Below, piece after piece: positions 31,118-57,269 of a stretch of DNA of 64,000 nt. The position numbers and the translations under genes are program-made. The notes beneath the pieces were generated by a model, which was given only the letters and a program-made list of their open reading frames with translations, ran no database searches and was not told where the DNA came from. The stretch is from contig NZ_JAGKSQ010000006.1 of NCBI RefSeq assembly GCF_017939705.1, forward strand, positions 124,001 to 188,000. Direction: 5' to 3'. The stretch comes from Halalkalibacter suaedae (GTDB lineage: Bacteria > Bacillota > Bacilli > Bacillales > Bacillaceae_D). Each line of letters starts with the position of its first letter. The first letter of the stretch is position 1.

Positions 31118-31510
31118 TTTATATTCCTCCTTGTATCTTTCACTCACTTTAGTATACCGTTATCTACTTCACTGAAATACTAGTATAAAGGACTCTTAGC
31201 TAATTTGGAATCAATTCATTTCTAGTAGATGTTAGCAATGTTGATTTCCCTTCCTAACTACTAATGTCTTGCTGTTATCTTACCATTAATTTAAGGAGGC
31301 TTCTCTTAGACATAGCTAAAAGAGCCCACGTAAATGGACTCATCTTTGATTGATTAGAGGCGTATCACATTAGACTAAAAAAGGAAGGCAGAATGGAGGA
31401 GAACTTGGGATTTACGAAGATATATGAGGGTTAAAGTGTATTTCAAATAGATTTACTAGGAGCGATCTGATTTATCTGACTAGAAAATGGAGCTATTTAT
31501 TTATTTCCGT
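31118..31510. other. Intergenic, nothing recognised
   Basis: A 393-bp AT-rich stretch between rlmCD and the SinI-like gene. No open frame with a ribosome site, no repeat copy and no strong hairpin were found. Confidence 0.5.
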
Positions 31511-31654
31511 TCAACGAGCCGCCCGCATTTCTTTCTGTGCAAGTAAATATTCACTAATCTCCTCAGGCTGAAGACCAATTTCCTTTGCTTCAATCATCAA
31601 GCAAATCCACTCAGAGTACTCCGTGTCCAAAGTAATTAGTTTGTTATCCTTCAT
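31511..31654 (-). CDS. SinI-like anti-repressor peptide 1, 47 aa
   Basis: A short gene, with ATG 8 bases after AGGAG, encodes a SinI-type dimerisation helix pair: EWICLMIEAKEIGLQPEEIS followed by EYLLAQKE. B. subtilis SinI reads EWVELMVEAKEANISPEEIR then KYLLLNK as I recall it, so W, L, M, EAKE, PEEI and YLL all align. SinI and SlrA bind SinR and release biofilm genes. No SinR is in the window. It lies 205 bp downstream of an OmpR-type regulator, behind that gene's terminator, with its own promoter region (31777-31795). The C-terminus AAR is short. Confidence 0.8.
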   Translation of the reverse strand: MKDNKLITLDTEYSEWICLMIEAKEIGLQPEEISEYLLAQKEMRAAR

Positions 31655-31776
31655 CTCCATCACTCCTAATTTATACATAGGTCCGCCAATTTCTGAAACT
31701 TATCGCTATCGTTCGATTTTCAATACTTTAGTCACGTACATTAAAAAGCCATCTGTACATTACTATAAATGACCAA

Positions 31777-31795
31777 GGTTAAAATAAGGTTAAAC
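31777..31795 (-). promoter_or_regulatory. 11-bp direct repeat upstream of SinI-like gene 1
   Basis: On the minus strand TTAACC-N5-TTAACC repeats with an 11-bp period, the spacing used by PhoP/OmpR-family regulators, and TATAGT follows 9 bp later. The adjacent regulator at 31860 is of that family. AT-rich repeats can arise by chance. Confidence 0.35.
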
Positions 31796-31830
31796 AAAAA
31801 ATAATTATTTGTTTTTTTGTAAAAAAAAAC

Positions 31831-31845
31831 CACCTTTTCAAGGTG
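31831..31845 (-). terminator. Terminator of response regulator 1
   Basis: caccttttcaaggtg (6-bp stem, 3-nt loop) is followed on the minus strand by GTTTTTTTTT, 14 bp after the regulator stop. Confidence 0.75.
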
Positions 31846-31859
31846 ATTGTTCGTTTGAT

Positions 31860-32549
31860 TTACTCTGTCGTGAATTTATAGCCGAAGCCTCTTACTGTTT
31901 GAATATACTTTGGTTTGGTAGGGTCTTGTTCAACTTTTTTTCTAAGATTACTAATGTGGACCATCACCGTCTTCAAATCCCCTGAACAGTAAACACCCCA
32001 GATTTGCTGGTATAATTGCTCTGCACTAAACACTTGGTTAGGATGTTGTAATAGAGTAATTAGTAATTGTTTTTCCTTCGCATAGAGAGAGACAAGTTCT
32101 TCACGGACATAAACATTTAATGTTCTCAAATCAACAGAAAGATCTCCAAACGATAATCGTTGTCCTTTTTCATGCTGTGCTGTCTGACTACTTCTGCGGA
32201 GGATCGCTTTCATTCTAGCCTCAAGCTCCGCCATGTCAAATGGTTTAGTAATATAGTCATCAGCCCCAGCATCAAATCCCTGTACCTTATCAACAGAGTC
32301 TCGCTTACAGCTCATAAATAGAATCGGTACAGTTGTCATCTCCCGCATATGTTTGCAGACGTCCAAACCATTAATTCCCGGTAATAAAATATCTAGCAAA
32401 ACTAAATTAGGTTTTTCTATCTGTACTAATGTAAGAGCAAGATTCCCTGTGTCAGCAGTTACCACCTCATAGCCTTTTTTCTGCAAATATAAAGTTGTTA
32501 ATTCCCTTATATCCTTATCATCCTCAACAATCAGAACTTTCTTCCTCAT
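31860..32549 (-). CDS. OmpR/PhoP-family response regulator 1
   Basis: A 229-residue regulator with a receiver domain (VEDDKD, phospho-acceptor Asp in LVLLDILLPG near 52, and YITKPF) and a winged-helix DNA-binding domain (VMVHISNLRKKVE, YIQTVRGFGYKF). It follows the hybrid kinase gene by 47 bp and surely shares its transcript. It resembles the regulator at 56553 closely: both have PILF-S-K-D-DK-G in the receiver and HISNLRKK with PKYI-TVRG-GYKF in the effector domain. The target may include the SinI-like gene directly downstream (inference). Confidence 0.9.
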   Translation of the reverse strand: MRKKVLIVEDDKDIRELTTLYLQKKGYEVVTADTGNLALTLVQIEKPNLVLLDILLPGINGLDVCKHMREMTTVPILFMSCKRDSVDKVQGFDAGADDYITKPFDMAELEARMKAILRRSSQTAQHEKGQRLSFGDLSVDLRTLNVYVREELVSLYAKEKQLLITLLQHPNQVFSAEQLYQQIWGVYCSGDLKTVMVHISNLRKKVEQDPTKPKYIQTVRGFGYKFTTE

Positions 32550-32596: not shown

Positions 32597-35500
32597 CTAT
32601 AGGATAATTGGTAAAGTGAAAAACACAGATGTTCCCTCGCCCTTCTTACTTTCTATCCAAATATGTCCCTTATGATATTCAATGATTTCTTTTGTGATAG
32701 CAAGCCCTAAACCCGAGCCTTTTATCTCATCGCTATTTTGATCAGAGCCTCTATAAAACCGATTAAATAGAAATGGAATCTCTTCCTCTGCTATTCCTGT
32801 GCCGTTGTCTCGCACTTCAATTTTCACTTTTGTTTCAAAACCGTTTTCATCCTCTTGATGATGTACTAGTTCTCCAAATATGAAAATTTCCCCTTCTTTC
32901 GATAGGTGCTTTAGTGCATTATAAATTATATTAGTCATTACCTGATCGATTCGGTCAACATCAATTAGTAACTCTCCATCATTGTCTAACACATTCTTGA
33001 AGACTGGCTTATGTATAAGACATCCATTACGATTAACTTCGAATTCAAACTTCTCAAACAGATGATTAAACCAGCTTGTAAATGGGATCGTTCTAATCTT
33101 TAACTGCATTTTCCCTGATTCGAATTTAATAAGGTCATATAAATCTGAAATTAGACGATCTAATAAAGTAATCTTCTCTTGAGCTAATTCAAGATACTTC
33201 GGGTTACTCGCCTCAATAAACCCTTCCTGAACGGTTTGAATATATCCTTGTAGAAAGGTCAAGGGTGTTCCTAGTTCATGAGAAATATTCGACAATAGAT
33301 CAATCCTCGATTGCTCTATTTGTCTTAGCTCCAAATTAATCTTATCTAGCTCCTGATTTTTCCACTCCAGTTGCTTTGTTCGTGAGGTAACCTTCTCTTC
33401 TAAAAGATCATTCATTTCTAGCAGTTGCTGATTGATTCGAGCTACTTCCTCAGCATGCCTTTGAACTTTAAGTGTAGATTCCTTTAGATTAATTAGTGTT
33501 TTCGTTCGTGACAATAACTCACGCTTATCAACTGGTTTCATCAAATAATCATTTGCACCCACTTCAAAGGCTGTGATTCGATCCTCTATTTGATTTTTTG
33601 CAGTCAGCATTAAAATCGGGAGTTCTGTCAAAGTGATTGTCTCTCGCAATGTCTGACATACTTCATAGCCAGACATTTTAGGCATCATTATATCTAGAAT
33701 TAATAATGAAAAGGAATCATTTTGAGAAATTTTACTCAGTACTTCCTCACCGTCTGAAGCTGTTTCAATCGTGTATCCAGCCATTGATAAGTAATTAATT
33801 AATACTTGAATATTCACCGGATCGTCATCCGCAACTAAAATTCTACTTCCACCATTTACAGCGACGTCCGTTGAAGGCATTTCCAGACTTAAGGACGTTT
33901 GCTCATGATACTCTCTCGAAACCACACTTACCGTTGATGCAATTTCAGGTTCTGCTCTTTCAGCTTCTTGATAAAGAGGTAATGTAAAATAAAAAGACGT
34001 CCCCTCACCGACAGTGGATTGCAGTGTAATTTCCCCTTGCTGGAGTTCAATCAAGCGCTTCGTTATATTTAGTCCAATTCCGCTCCCCCTACTTGTGCTA
34101 GCACTAAATTGATTTCCTCGGTTAAATGGTAAGAAGATCGATTGATGCTCCTCTTCTGGGATCCCTATACCAGTATCCTTTACCTCAATAATCACCTTAT
34201 CTTTAATCTCTCGAGCAGAAATAACCACCTCACCTTTCTCTGTGTATTTAATTCCATTTCCAATTAAATTAAAAAGAATTTGTTGGAGACGATTTTCATC
34301 TGCTAAGACAGTTAAATCCGGACTAATTCTATTTATTAATTTGATGTCTTTTTGTTTTAGTAATGTCTCACATATTGTGACAACTACATCTGACACTTCC
34401 TTCAGACGGACCTTCTTCAGATGTAATTGAATGTCATTATGCTTGAGCTTAGAAAAATCTAGTATGTCGTCAATTAAATGAGCAAGTCGGATCCCGCTAA
34501 TTTTAATCATCTTAAGATTGTCTTTAACGGTATTATTAATTTCCCCACCCGCACCATCGTACAACGAGTCGGCAAGACCAATAATTCCATTTAAGGGGGT
34601 ACGTAGCTCATGCGAGGTTATTGCCAAAAATTCATCCTTTAATTTATCATTTTGTTTCAAGCTTTCTAGCTTTTCCTTTTGACTTTTGATTGCCTCCTGC
34701 TCCGCCTGCTCCTTTTCTAATCGCAACATATTAATTTTGTCTGCAAGAGCAAAGGATATTAAGATGAGCTCAAATGCCGTTGACATTTGCCATGCATATT
34801 TTGTAAAGAAATTAAGTGGGATCATACCCGCATCAGCCAAAATAGAGATGATGACTCCAGTTAAGAATACATACCAAGAAAGTAAGAAAAACCGTGCAGG
34901 TCTGAATCCTCTTCTAAGAGAGATAAAGGCTCCTATCATAATGACAATGCTCATACAAGCAATACTCGCAACACTTATGTTCAAAGCTGCTGGATACGAG
35001 AAGAAGAGTAGAACCATTGTCGCTAGATTAAATAGCATCAGATAGTTGAAAAGTATGTTTATTCTAGGAATGTATGTATTCGCATCCAGAAAGGATTTTG
35101 CAAATAGAACTGCAACAATATTTGTTAGACACATGAAAAAGACAATCGACCGATTATTCCACCAAACACTTTCTGGCCATATAAACTGATAGGCCAATCC
35201 AGTAAAGGCCAAATGAGTAATTAAATTAACCAAAATGAATAAGACATAGAACAAATAGCTCTTATTTCGTAACGAAAAATACAAAAACAAATTATAAAAA
35301 GCCATGACAACGGCTATTCCGATAAACAGACCTAATACACCATATTCATACAATGTTTTCTCTAGAAAAGTTTTGTGATTATAGAGCGTAAGTGGAAATT
35401 GCATAGCTCCTTCTGTTTCAAAACGAAGATACATCGTTTTTGCTTCATTCGTTTGCAACTCAATTTCAAAAACATAGTTCCGATGGTTCATGTCACGCTC

Positions 35501-35905
35501 GGAAAATGGCAAAAGGTCTCCTGTTTTTTGAGCTTTAAACTCATCACCAGCTTCTGAATAGAGTGTGATATGATCTAGGGTAGAGTTTCTAATTTCTAGC
35601 AGCCAATCATGTTCGAGTGATTGATTGTCAAGCTGAAGCTTAGCCCAGTAAACAGAGCCTGCATAGCCGAAACTAGGGACCCCAGTTTGATACTGTTTAA
35701 AATGTTTATCCATTTCTGATGATTGGATGTCTTCAATCGTCCACTTACTCTCTGTATCTTCAAATATTTCGATTTTTTGATCTAAATTAAGTGTATTAAT
35801 CGATTCATCTATTACGATCCTTGCATCCTTCCCAGCAGCATCTGGTTGAAAGACTACAAATGCAATACACAAGAGCAGTACTATTCTCGCACTATACGAA
35901 AACAT
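32597..35905 (-). CDS. 7TMR-DISM hybrid kinase with two histidine-kinase cores
   Basis: A 1102-residue sensor. The order is: signal or first span (7-24), extracytoplasmic 7TMR-DISMED2 domain (about 40-170), seven spans (about 187-390), HisKA-1 with His432 (SHELRTPLNGIIG) and ATPase-1 (N-box N546-N550, DTGIGIP, GSGIGL). Next come a receiver with Asp738 (LLILDIMMP), a coiled coil (about 810-868), HisKA-2 with His876 (SNISHELGTPLT) and ATPase-2 (N992/N996, DNGTGIA, GSGLGL). Both cores look complete, though H-box 2 has Gly where Arg is usual. DISM domains usually sense carbohydrates or related ligands. The likely partner is the regulator 47 bp downstream. Confidence 0.92.
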   Translation of the reverse strand: MFSYSARIVLLLCIAFVVFQPDAAGKDARIVIDESINTLNLDQKIEIFEDTESKWTIEDIQSSEMDKHFKQYQTGVPSFGYAGSVYWAKLQLDNQSLEHDWLLEIRNSTLDHITLYSEAGDEFKAQKTGDLLPFSERDMNHRNYVFEIELQTNEAKTMYLRFETEGAMQFPLTLYNHKTFLEKTLYEYGVLGLFIGIAVVMAFYNLFLYFSLRNKSYLFYVLFILVNLITHLAFTGLAYQFIWPESVWWNNRSIVFFMCLTNIVAVLFAKSFLDANTYIPRINILFNYLMLFNLATMVLLFFSYPAALNISVASIACMSIVIMIGAFISLRRGFRPARFFLLSWYVFLTGVIISILADAGMIPLNFFTKYAWQMSTAFELILISFALADKINMLRLEKEQAEQEAIKSQKEKLESLKQNDKLKDEFLAITSHELRTPLNGIIGLADSLYDGAGGEINNTVKDNLKMIKISGIRLAHLIDDILDFSKLKHNDIQLHLKKVRLKEVSDVVVTICETLLKQKDIKLINRISPDLTVLADENRLQQILFNLIGNGIKYTEKGEVVISAREIKDKVIIEVKDTGIGIPEEEHQSIFLPFNRGNQFSASTSRGSGIGLNITKRLIELQQGEITLQSTVGEGTSFYFTLPLYQEAERAEPEIASTVSVVSREYHEQTSLSLEMPSTDVAVNGGSRILVADDDPVNIQVLINYLSMAGYTIETASDGEEVLSKISQNDSFSLLILDIMMPKMSGYEVCQTLRETITLTELPILMLTAKNQIEDRITAFEVGANDYLMKPVDKRELLSRTKTLINLKESTLKVQRHAEEVARINQQLLEMNDLLEEKVTSRTKQLEWKNQELDKINLELRQIEQSRIDLLSNISHELGTPLTFLQGYIQTVQEGFIEASNPKYLELAQEKITLLDRLISDLYDLIKFESGKMQLKIRTIPFTSWFNHLFEKFEFEVNRNGCLIHKPVFKNVLDNDGELLIDVDRIDQVMTNIIYNALKHLSKEGEIFIFGELVHHQEDENGFETKVKIEVRDNGTGIAEEEIPFLFNRFYRGSDQNSDEIKGSGLGLAITKEIIEYHKGHIWIESKKGEGTSVFFTLPIIL

Positions 35906-51131: not shown

Positions 51132-54100
51132 TCAAAACAAAGCATCCACTTGAATAACAGGTAACTGAATACAGAAAGTTGACCCATCTCCAAGCTTGCT
51201 TTCAGCCCAGATCTCTCCCTCATGTAAAAGAATGATTTCCCTACAAATCGCCAAACCTAACCCATTCCCATTTCTCGATTTCGTAAAGTAGCGATCAAAG
51301 ATAGAAGGCAGCTGATCTTTTGAAATACCTTCCCCACTATCAGTAATAGAAATGATTGCATTTTCTAAAGACTTGTCAAAACGCAAAGAAACAGATATCC
51401 CCCCTGATTCCGTATGTCTAATCGCATTTGAAATAATATTGGAAAACACCTGACTTATTCGTTTCACATCCACTTGAACCATTGGATAATCCCGGCTATT
51501 AATTTCTTCAATCATTAATGTGAAGAATAATCCTTTTCTTTTCACATCATATTCTAGTTGTTCCTTTAATCTCTTAATCAAACGATCAATTGGGATGATA
51601 TCAAAGGAAAAATGGATTTGACCACTTTCTAATCGTGCTAGCTCAAACAAATCATTAATCATCGAATTCAACCCATCTACCCGGTCTATAGATTTCTTTA
51701 AGAAATCTGTCTTTTGTTCTTCTGTTTCGACTACTCCGTCCAGTATCGCTTCGATATACCCTTTAACAGAAGCGATAGGTGTACGCAAATCATGTGAAAT
51801 ATTTGATAGTAAATGGCTGCGTTGCTTCTCAGCCCGCTCTAATTCTTTGTTTGCTTGCTCTAAATGTTGATTGACTTGTTCTATCTCCTGCGTGCGCTCT
51901 TTGACTTTTTCTTCAAGCTTTCCGTAGAGCTCGGCATTTTCAATAGATATAGCTGCTTGTGTTGAGAGAATAGATAAGAATCTAATTCTATCTTGCGTAA
52001 ATGCGTTTGTTGTTTGATTATTTTCCAAATATAAAACACTATTTACCTTCCCTTTATAAATTGCCGGGAGACATAGGATCGATTTGGGTTTATATGTTAA
52101 AACATATGGATCATCAATAAATAGTCCTTCGACAGTTGCATTGTTCAGCACGGTCGCTTCCATACTCTTCACTACATAGTTTACTATCATTGTAGATAGG
52201 CCACTTGACTCCTCAAGTGGTTGAAGAGCATTCGCACCAGCAATTTCTCCATTAACACTTGTGCTTGCAGCAACCAATAATTGATCACCTCTTTTTAGAA
52301 GAAGAACTCCTCTTTCTGCCCCTGCATGCTGCATCGTAATATCCATTAGTTTCTTTACTAGATTTTCTTGAACAATTTCACCTAATATCGCTTGAGATGC
52401 CTTCACAGAAGCATCGATATCGAACTGAGCGACAGATTGAGGAAGACCATATTCATTGATGTTGGGGATATAGCCTTCATACTCTTTCATTAACATATCA
52501 GCTTTTGCATAAGCCCCCCACTTTATATAGCTTCGGTATGCTTCTGCCATATATGCACTTCCAATACCTTCAAGTCCTTTAGAAAAATAGTACCGACCGG
52601 TTGCTTCATTACAAACGGCAACATCCTTGATAAAATTATTATCTTTTGCTGATGTAATAGCTGCGTCATAATTCTCAACTGCTTTTACATGGTTTTCGTC
52701 TATTCTAGCCAGTTCAGCTTCAAGAAGTTTCCACTTATTTAAATAATTCTCTGGACAATGTTTCGACCATTCCCTTAGCTTCTTGGCACTTCTTTTAAGT
52801 CTTTTATATAGTATCTTTTGGCGAGAAGGAGAAGAGTCTTGATACAATCTCGATGCCCAAAGCCCAGCGTAGAAATAATAGTCAGAGATAATAACAAGCG
52901 TTAACCGATTACTAATAAGTCCTTCTAAATGGTCAAACAGTGCCTCAGCATACTCTTCCTTATTGAACAGATAAGACAGTTGCAGTCTTATTGTATAATG
53001 AATAATCTTGACTGAGTCATCTTCTAACACTTGTTCAAACACCCAATTTGTTGCTGTGTTTTCATTCGTTAGAATATCAATCCAATACATAAACTCATTT
53101 AAAAAGCCTTTAGAAACAGCATAACGAATTTGGTCTATAAATAAGATCTGCTTTCTAATTCCTTTTCGTACTTCCTGCAAATGATCTCCCATCATGAAAT
53201 GTGCAATAGCAATAAAGGAGCTATTAGCTCCCGCTAAGCTGATATTCCCCGCATCTATACAATATTGTTGTGACCACTTTAAGTAGTCCAAATTATATTT
53301 AATTGGATGTTTCCAATGGTTCACAAAGCTTCCATAGACAAAATAGACCCTGCCCTTTAACCCAACGTCTCCGCTTCTTTCCGCAAGATCAATCGCAAGC
53401 TTTCCAAACTCATAGCTATTTTCAAAATCACTAAACCCGGCACTTAAAATTAATGCATAGTTATTACAGACCAATGAAGTTATATCTGTAATCCCGTGCT
53501 TGAGAGTGAATCGTAACGCTCTGAGCATTAGAATCGTTGCAAGATTTTGATCAACATGAAATGAGGGTGCATTCATCGTAATCATTGTATGTAACACCAA
53601 TCTTTTTTCTTGATCCTCTAAGGGAGGCAGTGTCAACAAATGATCCGCTTTTTTTCCACGCATGGCTAACTTAACTAGAAGTAACTCTTTCGCTATTATG
53701 GCCTTTGATGGATTTCGCTGAGTATTCCAACCAACTAGTTCGAGCCCTGCAATTCCTGCTTCTACTGCCTCATCGACACGATGAACATGCGTGTAAAGTA
53801 ACACCTTCATTTTATAAATTGATAACCTCTCAACATTTGTATGGACATTTTCTAACACTTTATCAAAAGTACGTTCCGCTTCCTCAAATTGACTATTTAG
53901 ATATTGGCATTCTCCTAAGCCTGTCATTAACTGATTCGTTAATTCATAATTAGACTCCCACGCAGCACCAAGCATTTCATAGGCTATTTGAAAATAATCA
54001 AGTGATTCCTTAAAAGCGGCTGATGCCTTTGCCTGTTCACCAGCTTTCACATTCCATTCTATTAGTGGGACCCATTCACTTTCTGTTAAATAGCCTCTAC

Positions 54101-56309
54101 ATCTATTTAGATGATTGACAATATCGAATAGAAAGTCATCAACCGACTTGAGCTCGACAAGGAGTCTGCCAATGCTTAGATGTGCCTGGTCCTGCTCTTC
54201 CTTTGTCATAATGGAATAGGCTGCTTGTTGAACCCTATCATGTAAGAAACGGTAGGTTGGTGATTGATCTTCCATTAATTGTTCGGGTCCATCCGCATAG
54301 ATCCACTTATAAGTTGAATCCTCCGGGAGAACATATCCTCCTTCAAGAGCCTCCCATAAATAGGATCCAGTTCGCTCGGGATCCTCATCACAAATAACTG
54401 ATAATGTCTTCAAATCAAATTCATTTCCAATACAAGAGGCGATTTTCAACATATGTTGTGTGCGAAGTGGAAGCTGCTTCACCCTATGAACCATTAAATC
54501 TACTATATTTTCTTTTTCCAAAGTCGTACTCACCTTCGAGAAATGAATAATCCATTTTCCTAAGTCGATACGAAATAGAATGGTTCCATTTTCATAGAAT
54601 GACTGAAACAGCTGCTTCATAAAGAAAGGATTCCCCTGAGTAATCCTGAACATGAGACGTGCAAGCTTCTTAGCATCAATTCCCTCATCCATCAATGTAT
54701 CTTGAACCCAATGAAGAATCACCTTTTCATTCAACGGCGGCAACGAGATTTCTGTGATTGTCACATTGTCCTTGCGAAGACTGTGAATAGTCTCAGTAAA
54801 AGCATGTTCAACCCCAATTTCATTATCACGATAGGCCCCTATTAACAATAAATATCGACTATCTACATGCGTTAGCAAATACTCAATTAGACTAAGTGAT
54901 GCTGTATCTGCCCATTGAAGATCATCGAGAAATAGAACCAAAGGATGGTCCTTTGTTGCAAATACATTCACGAACTTTTGGAAGAGCAAATAAAACCGTA
55001 GATGTGCATCGTTAGCTGATATCTCCTCTTCTTTTGGACTATCCCCTACTATCCATTTTAATTCTGGGATCACACTAGTAATCACTGACACATTTCCTGT
55101 TAGTTCTCTTTCAATATCATCTCTATAGCGTTGAAGACACTCGTCCCCTTCAGTCATGATCTGCCTAATTAATGATTTGAATGCTTGAATAATAGGTGAG
55201 TATGGCTTTTGCCTCTGCAGCAAATCAAACTTCCCTGAAATGAAATATCCTTTCATTCCAATTAGCGGAGGTTGAATTTCATTAACCAGTGCTGTCTTAC
55301 CAATGCCAGAATGACCCTGAATTAATACAAGCTCAGAATGACCAGAGCTTACCCGCTCAAATGACGCAAGCAACTTGTCTATTTCTAATTCTCTACCATA
55401 TAGCTTTCTTTCCAACTCAAAGACGACCATGGGATCATCTTGTCCAAGTGGAAAATCCTCAACCTTGCCAAATAATCGCAGTTGATCGATACATCGCTTT
55501 AGGTCTTCCCGCAACCCATAGGCACTCCTGTATCGATCTTCAGGTATTTTAGATAGAAGCTTTACGATCATTTTCGAGAGAACTGCTGGAATCTTATCGT
55601 TACGTGCAACTGGCTCATAGGGTACTTTAGTCAAATTCGCGTGTAATAGCTTCATTGGGTCATTATCAGAAAAGGGAAGTGCCCCCGTCACCATTTCATA
55701 TAACAAAACTCCAAAAGAATATAAATCTGATCGAAAATCTACAGACCGATTCATTCTTCCCGTTTGTTCAGGAGATATATAGGCAAGCCTTCCTTCTATT
55801 TCAAAAGGGGTGACACTTTTCCGCTGACTCTCTCTTTGTAGCTTTGTTGCATGATCAAAGCCAGTTATTTTTAATTGACCAGTTGTTCGATTGAAAATGA
55901 TATTTTCTGGATTTATATTTTTGTGAATAATCTGATATTTATGGAGCTGGATCATCGCTGATGTGATCTTCATCGCAATGGAAAGAGCCTCTACTATCTC
56001 AAGCTCTTCGTTCAGCAGTAATTCACTTAAAGAAACACCTGAAAAATACTCCATAACTACATAAGGTTCATTTAGATATTTTTCAATTTGAATTGGACGA
56101 ATCACCTCATCCATATCTAAGTCTTTTGTCAGATGAAATTCATGGATGCTAGCTGCCATTTCATGAGGAGTAGGGTTTGACTTTCTGATTGCTTTCAATA
56201 AAACTAGTTTATTATCTATAGTTGAATATCCCTTGTACATAATAGACGTACTATTTTGAACCTCAATATCAACTATTTTGTAGTCTGCTAGTACAGGCAT
56301 TCTTTTCAT
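51132..56309 (-). CDS. Giant hybrid: Ser/Thr pseudokinase, AAA/STAND ATPase, TPR-like, GAF, histidine kinase
   Basis: A soluble 1725-residue signalling protein. A protein-kinase-like domain (about 10-275) keeps K39 and SDLYSFGVLLYEM. It has HKNIN (129-133) for HRDLK and GFD (150-152) for DFG, so both catalytic aspartates and the catalytic-loop Lys are lost. A STAND-type ATPase follows (Walker A GHSGIGKT 332-339; Walker B LVLFLDDLQWAD). A long helical TPR-like region comes next (about 780-1290), then a GAF domain (about 1330-1460), a coiled coil and a histidine kinase with His1506 (SNISHDLRTPIASVKG), N-box NIISNAIRH and GNGLGLAI. The order matches PknB-AAA-GAF-HisKA sensors. It lies downstream of a regulator gene of the same strand. 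Confidence 0.92.
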   Translation of the reverse strand: MKRMPVLADYKIVDIEVQNSTSIMYKGYSTIDNKLVLLKAIRKSNPTPHEMAASIHEFHLTKDLDMDEVIRPIQIEKYLNEPYVVMEYFSGVSLSELLLNEELEIVEALSIAMKITSAMIQLHKYQIIHKNINPENIIFNRTTGQLKITGFDHATKLQRESQRKSVTPFEIEGRLAYISPEQTGRMNRSVDFRSDLYSFGVLLYEMVTGALPFSDNDPMKLLHANLTKVPYEPVARNDKIPAVLSKMIVKLLSKIPEDRYRSAYGLREDLKRCIDQLRLFGKVEDFPLGQDDPMVVFELERKLYGRELEIDKLLASFERVSSGHSELVLIQGHSGIGKTALVNEIQPPLIGMKGYFISGKFDLLQRQKPYSPIIQAFKSLIRQIMTEGDECLQRYRDDIERELTGNVSVITSVIPELKWIVGDSPKEEEISANDAHLRFYLLFQKFVNVFATKDHPLVLFLDDLQWADTASLSLIEYLLTHVDSRYLLLIGAYRDNEIGVEHAFTETIHSLRKDNVTITEISLPPLNEKVILHWVQDTLMDEGIDAKKLARLMFRITQGNPFFMKQLFQSFYENGTILFRIDLGKWIIHFSKVSTTLEKENIVDLMVHRVKQLPLRTQHMLKIASCIGNEFDLKTLSVICDEDPERTGSYLWEALEGGYVLPEDSTYKWIYADGPEQLMEDQSPTYRFLHDRVQQAAYSIMTKEEQDQAHLSIGRLLVELKSVDDFLFDIVNHLNRCRGYLTESEWVPLIEWNVKAGEQAKASAAFKESLDYFQIAYEMLGAAWESNYELTNQLMTGLGECQYLNSQFEEAERTFDKVLENVHTNVERLSIYKMKVLLYTHVHRVDEAVEAGIAGLELVGWNTQRNPSKAIIAKELLLVKLAMRGKKADHLLTLPPLEDQEKRLVLHTMITMNAPSFHVDQNLATILMLRALRFTLKHGITDITSLVCNNYALILSAGFSDFENSYEFGKLAIDLAERSGDVGLKGRVYFVYGSFVNHWKHPIKYNLDYLKWSQQYCIDAGNISLAGANSSFIAIAHFMMGDHLQEVRKGIRKQILFIDQIRYAVSKGFLNEFMYWIDILTNENTATNWVFEQVLEDDSVKIIHYTIRLQLSYLFNKEEYAEALFDHLEGLISNRLTLVIISDYYFYAGLWASRLYQDSSPSRQKILYKRLKRSAKKLREWSKHCPENYLNKWKLLEAELARIDENHVKAVENYDAAITSAKDNNFIKDVAVCNEATGRYYFSKGLEGIGSAYMAEAYRSYIKWGAYAKADMLMKEYEGYIPNINEYGLPQSVAQFDIDASVKASQAILGEIVQENLVKKLMDITMQHAGAERGVLLLKRGDQLLVAASTSVNGEIAGANALQPLEESSGLSTMIVNYVVKSMEATVLNNATVEGLFIDDPYVLTYKPKSILCLPAIYKGKVNSVLYLENNQTTNAFTQDRIRFLSILSTQAAISIENAELYGKLEEKVKERTQEIEQVNQHLEQANKELERAEKQRSHLLSNISHDLRTPIASVKGYIEAILDGVVETEEQKTDFLKKSIDRVDGLNSMINDLFELARLESGQIHFSFDIIPIDRLIKRLKEQLEYDVKRKGLFFTLMIEEINSRDYPMVQVDVKRISQVFSNIISNAIRHTESGGISVSLRFDKSLENAIISITDSGEGISKDQLPSIFDRYFTKSRNGNGLGLAICREIILLHEGEIWAESKLGDGSTFCIQLPVIQVDALF

Positions 56310-56335
56310 ACATCGTCATCCTTTTATGGATTTCT

Positions 56336-56374
56336 TTAACAAAACTTTAAGTAATTTTATACGGAATTTATAGT
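56336..56374 (+). promoter_or_regulatory. 11-bp direct repeat and -10 upstream of SinI-like gene 2
   Basis: TTAACA (56336-56341) and TTAAGT (56347-56352) repeat with an 11-bp period. TATAGT (56369-56374) follows the second at 16 bp. A similar TTAACC-N5-TTAACC arrangement precedes SinI-like gene 1. The region is AT-rich, so chance is possible. Confidence 0.35.
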
Positions 56375-56416
56375 TCCTAAACTAAGATATGGATACAGGC
56401 TTATAGGAGGTAGGAA

Positions 56417-56572
56417 ATGGAACAAAACAATCTCTTACATAACACTGACACGACACCAACATTAGATAATGAGTGGGTAGGTCTTCTATTAGAAGCGAAA
56501 AGCATCGGGATCACACCCGAAGAAGTTAAAGACTTTTTCACGCAAATAAAGCTTATTCCTGAGAACCGATGA
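56417..56572 (+). CDS. SinI-like anti-repressor peptide 2, 51 aa
   Basis: A small gene with ATAGGAGG 8 bases ahead of the ATG. After a polar N-terminus it encodes LDNEWVGLLLEAKSIGITPE then EVKDFFTQIK, aligning with the SinI dimerisation motif EW--LM-EAKE--ISPEEI-KYLL. It sits in the gap between response regulator 2 and the giant kinase, on the opposite strand. Its last 20 bp overlap the tail of the regulator gene. It would antagonise SinR or a paralogue encoded elsewhere (inference). Confidence 0.78.
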   Translation: MEQNNLLHNTDTTPTLDNEWVGLLLEAKSIGITPEEVKDFFTQIKLIPENR

Positions 56573-57269
56573 ATTTGTAGCCAATCCCTCTAACAGTACT
56601 AATATACTTTGGAGTTTCCAGCCTAGGTTCAATTTTCTTCCGCAAGTTACTAATATGCACCATGACCGTGCGATGATCTCCAAGGCTTTCCTCTTCCCAT
56701 ATTAGCTCGAATAGATCCTTGACACTATATACACGGTTTGGATGTTCAGCTAATACACAAAGAAGGCGGTATTCCTTCGTCGATAAAGCAACGGTTTCTC
56801 CATTTACTTTAACGACATAACTCTCTTTATCTATAGATAGTCCCGGAAACTCGATCATCCGTTTCACCGGTTTGTGTACAACGCTTATTTGATTCTCTAT
56901 AGTTCGATGGCGACGTAAATGTGCTTGAATTTTCGCGGTTACGAGGGCTGGACTGAAGGGTTTCGTAATATAGTCATCCCCTCCGATCTTATGACCTAAA
57001 ATCTTATCGATTTCATCTTCCTTAGAGCTTAAAAAGAGAATTGGAACCATTGTCTTTTGACGAATTAACCGACATATTTCAAAACCATCCATTCCTGGTA
57101 GGACTACATCTAAGATAATGATGTCGGGCTTATACTCCTCTACAAGTCGTAATGCAGTTGGTCCATCTTCAGCTTGAATAACTGTGAAGGATTCTTTTTC
57201 TAAATATAACTGCAAAATTTCTCTAATATCACGGTCATCCTCGACAAGCATGACGGTTTCCCTCGGCAT
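56553..57269 (-). CDS. OmpR/PhoP-family response regulator 2
   Basis: A 238-residue regulator: receiver with VEDDRD, phospho-acceptor Asp in IIILDVVLPG near 54 and YITKPF; winged-helix domain with TVMVHISNLRKKIE and YISTVRGIGYKF. It is strikingly like the regulator at 31860. It precedes the giant kinase gene on the same strand with a 243-bp gap that contains the SinI-like gene in reverse. It is probably the partner of the C-terminal histidine kinase. Confidence 0.9.
   Translation of the reverse strand: MPRETVMLVEDDRDIREILQLYLEKESFTVIQAEDGPTALRLVEEYKPDIIILDVVLPGMDGFEICRLIRQKTMVPILFLSSKEDEIDKILGHKIGGDDYITKPFSPALVTAKIQAHLRRHRTIENQISVVHKPVKRMIEFPGLSIDKESYVVKVNGETVALSTKEYRLLCVLAEHPNRVYSVKDLFELIWEEESLGDHRTVMVHISNLRKKIEPRLETPKYISTVRGIGYKFIGSQE

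Follow-up and report, generated by a model that had tools for sequence, protein, structure and literature searches.

Two sensor-SinI modules in one locus

The window examined here, a 64,000-nucleotide stretch of the Halalkalibacter suaedae genome (contig NZ_JAGKSQ010000006.1, positions 124,001 to 188,000), holds within 26 kb (window positions 31511-57269) two gene modules, each combining a large sensor kinase, an OmpR-type response regulator and a short gene for a SinI-like peptide that is preceded by a direct repeat, here called the box. The features, in window coordinates, are:

56417-56572, plus strand: sinI-like peptide gene of module 2 (P0002), 51 residues; Pfam SinI domain, phmmer match to SinI of 1b0n, predicted helices
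56335-56351, plus strand: direct repeat TTTAACAAAACTTTAAG, proposed response-regulator box of sinI 2; pattern and promoter scans
56553-57269, minus strand: OmpR-type response regulator 2 (P0003), 238 residues; Response_reg and Trans_reg_C domains, own clade in the tree
51132-56309, minus strand: sensor kinase 2 (P0001), 1725 residues; Pkinase-like, AAA_16, weak TPR, GAF, HisKA and HATPase_c domains
31511-31678, minus strand: sinI-like peptide gene of module 1 (P0006), 55 residues; Pfam SinI domain
31778-31794, minus strand: direct repeat TTTAACCTTATTTTAAC, proposed box of sinI 1; pattern and promoter scans
31860-32549, minus strand: OmpR-type response regulator 1 (P0005), 229 residues; domain search and tree
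32597-35905, minus strand: hybrid sensor kinase 1 (P0004), 1102 residues; 7TMR-DISM extracellular and seven-transmembrane parts, histidine kinase (HK) core, receiver, second HK core

In module 2 the sinI gene lies between kinase and regulator on the strand opposite to both, divergent from the kinase and convergent with regulator 2, whose 3' end it overlaps by 20 bp (56553-56572); in module 1 it lies downstream of regulator 1 on the same strand. The first-pass annotation of this DNA had described a 51-codon SinI-like gene between regulator 2 and its kinase, near-twin regulators, two giant kinases with a common C-terminal core, and a TTAA-type 11-bp repeat upstream of both peptide genes, and this is confirmed, with more behind it than was claimed. 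The open reading frame (ORF) is present and scores 43.0 bits against the Pfam SinI model PF08671, above its curated cut-off of 31.4; the regulators are 49% identical and form two supported neighbouring clades; the C-terminal core of kinase 2 shares 36% identity over 283 columns with the second HK core of kinase 1 (28% with the first); and both repeats are there. The word giant suits kinase 2, with the 1725 residues claimed; kinase 1 has 1102 and a different sensor half.

Conservation of the modules

A search with kinase 2 through 397 genomes of the order, at E <= 1e-100, gave matches in 23 genomes including its own; the 23 matches outside it, in 22 genomes (one with two), were all inspected with their surroundings. 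The regulator-sinI-kinase trio was found in all 15 relatives with at least 37% identity, namely one named contig, Bacillus sp. FJAT-50079, and 14 genomes, not independent in that three come from one genus and two from another, which spread over nine families besides the window's and in which kinase identity is at least 38% over nearly the whole length. In these 15 relatives the regulator, 53-78% identical, sits on the kinase strand and a SinI-like ORF of 45-69 residues lies between the two on the opposite strand; the convergent overlap of sinI and regulator, 4-28 bp long, is present in 16/16 loci, the window included. PF08671 recovered the peptide in 13 of the 14 genomes, which this check covered with locus L090 left out. 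The exception, in L102 (genome G301), is 62% identical to the L103 peptide and was matched at E 0.012 by a custom hidden Markov model (HMM) built from SinI- and SinR-type domains of other genomes and the SinR of the window's own genome (29 rows, two of them, L015 and L020, nonsense translations).

The trio also occurs on a plasmid of Bacillus badius, pPM400 (396 kb; L193 3040-9190), beside annotated polysaccharide genes, and its record annotates the three genes as a response regulator, a 'DNA-binding anti-repressor SinI' and an 'ATP-binding sensor histidine kinase'. Thus, module 2 can sit on a plasmid. Its neighbouring genes match those of L097 at 97-100% identity and the peptide is the same in both, and because of this near-identity the plasmid copy was not counted as independent.

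For module 1, the same 397 genomes were searched with kinase 1 at E <= 1e-200, and matches were obtained in 17 genomes, its own included. A regulator with 48-62% identity stands beside the kinase in all 16 relatives, and a SinI-like ORF lies within about 0.5 kb in 13 of them, downstream of the regulator in 12 and upstream of the kinase in L123; PF08671 recovers the peptide in 13/13. The proposal that the combination of kinase, OmpR-type regulator and SinI-like peptide recurs by more than chance, and that relatives would keep the peptide beside these kinases, is thereby borne out (15/15 for module 2, 13/16 for module 1), as is the expectation that the peptides would score better than random short frames: over 3712 frames the custom HMM matched the module-2 peptides at E 3e-12 to 0.012, and only two evidently unrelated frames occur among the matches listed, at E 0.35 and 0.44. 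Given the conservation of both modules and the rarity of SinI domains (five in the genome), we rejected a chance neighbourhood.

The peptides and their SinI domain

The module-1 peptide also exceeds the PF08671 cut-off, at 37.8 bits. The module-2 peptide contains the motif LDNEWVGLLLEAKSIGITPEEVKDFF within its 51 residues, and its nearest solved structures by sequence are SinI chains (1b0n_B, E 3.6e-4 by phmmer; 5tmx_A, E 4.1e-4). A single-chain structure model from 29 aligned peptides places helices at residues 12-30 and 34-45, with a mean predicted local distance difference test (pLDDT) score of 73.7; over residues 21-40 of the predicted peptide helices the mean pLDDT is 93 and 91. Across the 29 module peptides M1 and a W, L, A and G are invariant and one Phe is nearly so; at the Gly and Phe positions the alignment places Asn and Tyr in Bacillus subtilis SinI. 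A coding signal is evident from pN < pS (nonsynonymous and synonymous differences) in 14 of 15 peptide pairs, with dS saturated in five of these 14.

The 4.3-Mb genome of the window contains five PF08671 matches, two of which are the window peptides; the others are a SinR-like protein (112 aa, with a helix-turn-helix (HTH) and a SinI domain), a SinI on contig C24 and a third peptide at 518 kb of C24. The sinI-sinR pair on C24 adjoins genes that, by eye, resemble polysaccharide genes. The SinR-like protein is the only SinI-domain frame of SinR size in this genome. Taking a frame length of at least 110 aa as a proxy for SinR, with the proviso that some short SinI genes also lie within long open frames, a SinI-domain match was found in 21/21 genomes that have a kinase-2 relative (the module being present in 14) and in 15/16 that have a kinase-1 relative, the exception being G326, so that a SinR-sized SinI-domain frame is present in 36 of the 37 other genomes with a relative of either kinase. 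In L093 a SinR gene comes after the kinase, its product 68% identical to the SinR of the window's genome, and next to it stand genes that look by eye like tasA and sipW.

The 11-bp repeat box

Upstream of both sinI genes the box has the consensus TTTAAC-N5-TTTAAC, chosen after viewing the window copies, and it forms part of a longer ladder of 11-bp units ending near a TATA-like hexamer. In the 160 bp before module-2 sinI genes, sense strand, it was found with no, at most one and at most two mismatches in 5, 10 and 14 of 16 promoters, and in the 450 bp before module-1 sinI genes in 8, 13 and 14 of 14, the window copies being counted in both sets; the longer span allows for the riboswitches that stand between box and gene in seven module-1 loci. 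Control frames of at least 150 aa from the same loci, which are mechanical ORFs and not curated genes, gave 0, 0 and 8 of 332 at 160 bp and 0, 1 and 22 of 326 at 450 bp. Promoter distances are approximate throughout, as ORF starts are those of the longest frame (for L120 the start was placed by hand). Of 45 SinI genes located outside the modules none had the exact box (0/45), and one mismatch or fewer was seen in 2/45 at 160 bp and 4/45 at 450 bp, the former two being the displaced SinI genes of genomes G317 and G124 described below. The link of regulator, box and sinI across two different gene layouts is therefore well supported by sequence comparison.

Two wider roles for the box were considered and rejected. 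Autoregulation was dismissed on the absence of any sense-strand match, with at most one mismatch, within 160 bp of the 332 large frames. As to a genome-wide regulon, the pattern TTTAACN5TTTAA occurs 17 times in the window's genome, compared with 20 times for the backwards pattern; two of the 17 precede the window sinI genes, eight of the other 15 lie inside large frames, and of these 15 a single one (L186) stands shortly before a frame of at least 150 aa on its own strand.

Cyclic di-GMP riboswitches

In 7 of the 13 module-1 relatives, box and sinI are separated by a cyclic di-GMP (c-di-GMP)-I aptamer (RF01051 or RF03167, 72-84 bits). The Rfam scans covered the window, the module-1 relatives and selected SinI loci, with module-2 relatives left out; in the window no credible c-di-GMP-I riboswitch was found, with the gathering threshold applied to the whole window and a loose threshold to 31400-31950 only. 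Of 36 extra, hand-picked SinI loci, seven contained the aptamer core, and Rfam applied to those seven and to three loci of the window's genome and genus placed a c-di-GMP-I riboswitch directly before SinI in 10/10, in some of which it overlaps the longest SinI frame. The third SinI peptide of the genome (C24:518154-518432; L042 6155-6433) is one of these cases, lying directly behind a riboswitch of 82.7 bits that is one of 11 in the genome. By eye, this third SinI adjoins a gene set resembling one for a lasso peptide, and a similar SinI setting was seen in several members of the genus.

Sensor kinases and regulators

Both kinases and both regulators have the hallmarks of two-component proteins (H-box, N and G boxes, receiver and winged-helix domains). 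Kinase 2 has the domain order Pkinase, AAA_16, GAF, HisKA, HATPase_c, which is that of hybrid Ser/Thr-His kinases, and the following parts were located in it:

55530-56249, minus strand: Ser/Thr-kinase-like domain (Pfam, residues 21-260), with HKN for HRD and GFD for DFG
54840-55406, minus strand: AAA_16 ATPase domain, Walker A and B kept
51156-51821, minus strand: HisKA and HATPase_c core, with SNISHDLRTP and GNGLGLAI

Active Ser/Thr kinases are defined by catalytic HRD and DFG motifs. In a motif alignment judged by eye, the catalytic Asp of HRD and the Asp of DFG are absent from all 16 module-2 kinases, and the ATP-binding Lys (16/16), the Walker A and B motifs and the HK motifs are retained. 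By its sequence this domain looks like a pseudokinase that may act as a sensor or scaffold.

In the regulator tree, for which 17 hand-picked rows served as outgroup, the module clades are supported at 100/98 and 99/95 and are joined, together with one further row, at 93/88. Their recognition helices are similar: those of module 2 come near TVMVHISNLRKK, and those of module 1 read TVSVHIxNLRKK or something like it. A search of viral contigs with regulator 2 gave no match, and a search of plasmids with kinase 1 returned one LadS record and nothing else. What the comparison as a whole shows is that the genes are linked, that the peptides have a SinI domain, that the box is present and rare before other genes, and that the regulators are related.

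A dedicated input to SinR and its alternatives

SinI inactivates SinR by forming a heterodimer with it (PMC4238804, PMC10878085). Considering our findings here, it is likely that each module is a dedicated two-component input to SinR, in which a signal acts through kinase, regulator and box to raise sinI, lower SinR activity and turn matrix genes on. The signal would enter at kinase 2 probably in the cytosol, through the half with the pseudokinase-like, AAA/TPR and GAF domains, and at kinase 1 at the membrane, through 7TMR-DISM. Autophosphorylation of the related C-terminal HK core would follow, and the phosphorylated OmpR-type regulator would bind TTTAAC-N5-TTTAAC before the private sinI and activate it; the peptide would then pair with the SinI-type helices of SinR and titrate SinR off DNA, releasing matrix genes (eps, tasA). 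Where a riboswitch lies between box and sinI, output would depend on two conditions, a signal at the kinase and a c-di-GMP state that permits it. The phosphotransfer, the regulator that binds the box, the activating sign, the binding to SinR and the matrix output are steps that we infer. With a SinI copy of its own, each sensor can probably turn off SinR, the biofilm repressor, independently. In module 2, the convergent overlap means that a transcript of regulator and kinase would run antisense through sinI, and it is possible that antisense or noncontiguous-operon feedback results, the arrangement being like that of published noncontiguous operons, as far as the excerpts of that literature go.

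Several observations weigh against this interpretation. The peptides reach only 27.5 and 26.9 bits with the NCBIfam equivalog model of Bacillus SinI (cut-off 80 bits), and because that cut-off is not reached we class them, from their sequences, as SinI-domain proteins distinct from the sinI orthologue; a Foldseek search of the single-chain peptide model against the PDB gave no significant match, SinI included; and one close peptide pair has a dN/dS of 1.86. The box has 2-3 mismatches in 6 of the 16 module-2 promoters, and the 160- and 450-bp spans were chosen only after an initial 220-bp scan of both strands, in which it appeared, with at most one mismatch, in 10/16 module-2 and 5/14 module-1 promoters. 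Moreover, TTTAAC repeats presumably resemble the boxes of other OmpR-type regulators such as PhoP. The trio is absent from the nine more distant kinase-2 matches (23-35% identity), three of which (L110, L112, L114) have no SinI in the retrieved region. An adjacent SinI is also missing from 3 of the 16 module-1-like pairs: G326 keeps kinase and regulator and has no SinI-domain match anywhere in its genome, and the congeneric G317 and G124 have their SinI genes elsewhere, one of them in each (L166 5594-5755 and L167 12814-12975) 15-18 kb from the kinase, with a one-mismatch box 122 bp upstream. Finally, the other 12 genomes of the genus have neither kinase at the thresholds used, and the system is therefore dispensable.

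The modules are patchily distributed. At the thresholds used, no genome besides that of the window appears in both kinase lists, and in 15 picked loci of the window's genome and genus no related OmpR regulator or giant kinase was found at E <= 1e-8, the best match being a LuxR/NarL-type regulator in L044 at E 6e-8. At the level of the genus the comparison thus resembled a refutation, an outcome that the order-wide search with kinase 2 reversed. That both modules occur together here, with neither kinase present in the other genomes of the genus at the thresholds used, may point to an acquired region.

Two alternatives to a dedicated SinR input deserve weighing, and we regard both as improbable, in equal measure. 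In the first, the peptide is a connector that binds its own kinase or regulator, with its SinI domain serving as no more than a general two-helix motif for dimerisation. Such a role would fit the position of the peptide between kinase and regulator in all 15 module-2 relatives, as well as the short list of invariant residues (M1, W, L, A, G) and the replacement of Gly and Phe by Asn and Tyr in B. subtilis SinI. However, the peptides pass the Pfam SinI model and are like SinI genes elsewhere that have other apparent inputs (riboswitches, NarL-type regulators), a Pfam scan found no SinI-like domain in the kinases or regulators, the box-bearing sinI of G317 and G124 lies far from its kinase, and G326 retains kinase and regulator without any SinI-domain protein.

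In the second, SinR-like proteins are indeed the target of the peptide, but the TTTAAC repeats serve as sites for another OmpR-type regulator, PhoP for example, and the kinase is merely a neighbour. We take TTAAC-type repeats with an 11-bp period to be common among OmpR-family sites, and the regulator O_L139 of the window's own genome, with the helix DVRTVDVTVRRLREK, looks to us PhoP-like. Yet the box follows the modules, as its absence, with at most one mismatch, within 160 bp of the 332 large frames and, in exact form, before the 45 other SinI genes indicates; the count of 17 set against 20 for the backwards control gives no sign of a large box regulon; and the two clades of regulators combine similar recognition helices with the same box in promoters of different layout. 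It is hardly credible that the target of the peptide is instead a SinR paralogue (SlrR-like or another HTH protein) and its output, for instance, motility or cell separation and not matrix, since, even though some genomes have more than one SinR-sized SinI-domain frame (L093 has two sinR-like genes) and the SinI-type proteins of B. subtilis act within a SinR/SlrR switch (PMC4238804), the window's genome has one such frame, near polysaccharide-like genes as judged by eye.

Other sensors linked to SinI

The linkage of sensors to SinI extends beyond the two modules. In L107 and L113, which belong to the nine distant kinase-2 matches, a related AAA-GAF half carries a LuxR-type HTH in place of the HK, and SinI lies about 60 and 200 bp away:

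L107 10783-11010: SinI beside LuxR-fused AAA-GAF regulator
L113 10319-10486: SinI beside LuxR-fused AAA-GAF regulator

Four distant kinase-2 matches (L063, L108, L109, L111) and L062, from a family search, have a HisKA_3-like core, assigned by Pfam in L062 and L108 and by motif alignment in L063, L109 and L111; these kinases lie about 0.1 to 3.3 kb from SinI or SinR genes, and a NarL-type regulator was recognised by eye in L062, L063, L108 and L111.

We lean slightly towards a broader reading, taken as a whole, in which SinI is an output part that unrelated sensors of the window's order have acquired privately and SinR integrates their signals by titration. The sensors would comprise pseudokinase-AAA-GAF-HK proteins with OmpR-type regulators, 7TMR-DISM hybrids, HisKA_3 kinases with NarL-type regulators, LuxR-fused AAA proteins and c-di-GMP riboswitches. 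In some lineages the common 11-bp box and a c-di-GMP riboswitch on the same transcript would form promoter-plus-riboswitch AND gates, and in module 2 the convergent overlap of sinI and regulator (16/16) would add antisense feedback.

A layout like that of module 2, with another regulator family, was seen in two further loci: the SinI at L152 6015-6176 converges on the 3' end of a NarL-type regulator (by eye) with a 6-bp overlap, and the SinI at L158 5372-5497 does so with a 14-bp gap.

Comparison with known systems

The routes to the SinR switch other than Spo0A~P are largely open, and the signal upstream of SlrA is unknown, as far as the excerpts of PMC4238804 go. Through the modules, specific kinases, regulators and DNA boxes can be named as prospective inputs to SinR, joined in some species by a second messenger; the modules also hint at what two families of large kinases may do. 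One repressor with many private anti-repressors becomes a testable design rule for biofilm decisions, and the LuxR-fused version (L107, L113) offers a one-protein form suited to biochemistry. The first-pass annotation had not foreseen the degeneracy of the Ser/Thr-kinase domain, the riboswitches for c-di-GMP, the variants with a LuxR fusion or a NarL-type regulator, or how patchily the modules are distributed. In the open-access literature (the PubMed Central open set, with subscription papers outside it), no paper on a kinase-regulator-SinI module was among the matches listed, which were seen in excerpt.

The nearest precedent is SlrA, the second SinI-type anti-repressor of B. subtilis, which is under YwcC (PMC10878085, PMC4238804). 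Like the modules, it pairs a SinI paralogue located away from sinIR with a private transcription factor, and it inhibits SinR; however, YwcC is a TetR-type repressor, whereas the modules rely on large kinases paired with regulators, exist in two versions and have a box in common. The sinI-sinR pair of B. subtilis has in common with the modules the SinI core domain and the expected antagonism of SinR, but its sinI answers to Spo0A~P (PMC4238804), whereas the module peptides are encoded elsewhere, with a TTTAAC box. In Bacillus methanolicus MGA3 a c-di-GMP riboswitch before sinI is listed as predicted (PMC4342826); no two-component module is mentioned in the excerpt of that paper, whereas 7 of the 13 module-1 relatives combine box, riboswitch and sinI.

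The kinases have relatives of their own. Plasmid proteins of Leptolyngbya, Nostoc and Calothrix, annotated 'serine/threonine protein kinase with two-component sensor domain', that is, hybrid Ser/Thr-His kinases, are 32-34% identical to kinase 2 over 99-100% of its length; in the module-2 kinases the catalytic Asp residues of the Ser/Thr-kinase domain are missing (16/16), and these kinases are tied to sinI. Kinase 1 resembles the LadS-type 7TMR-DISM hybrid kinases, a gene annotated ladS showing 31.6% identity over 71% of it. LadS belongs to a network for the planktonic-biofilm switch and works with GacS/GacA (PMC4866733), whereas kinase 1 has a second HK core at its end and is paired with an OmpR-type regulator and SinI. 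The parts are all of known kinds, and what appears to be new is their standing combination, in two related lineages that share one box and an optional c-di-GMP gate.

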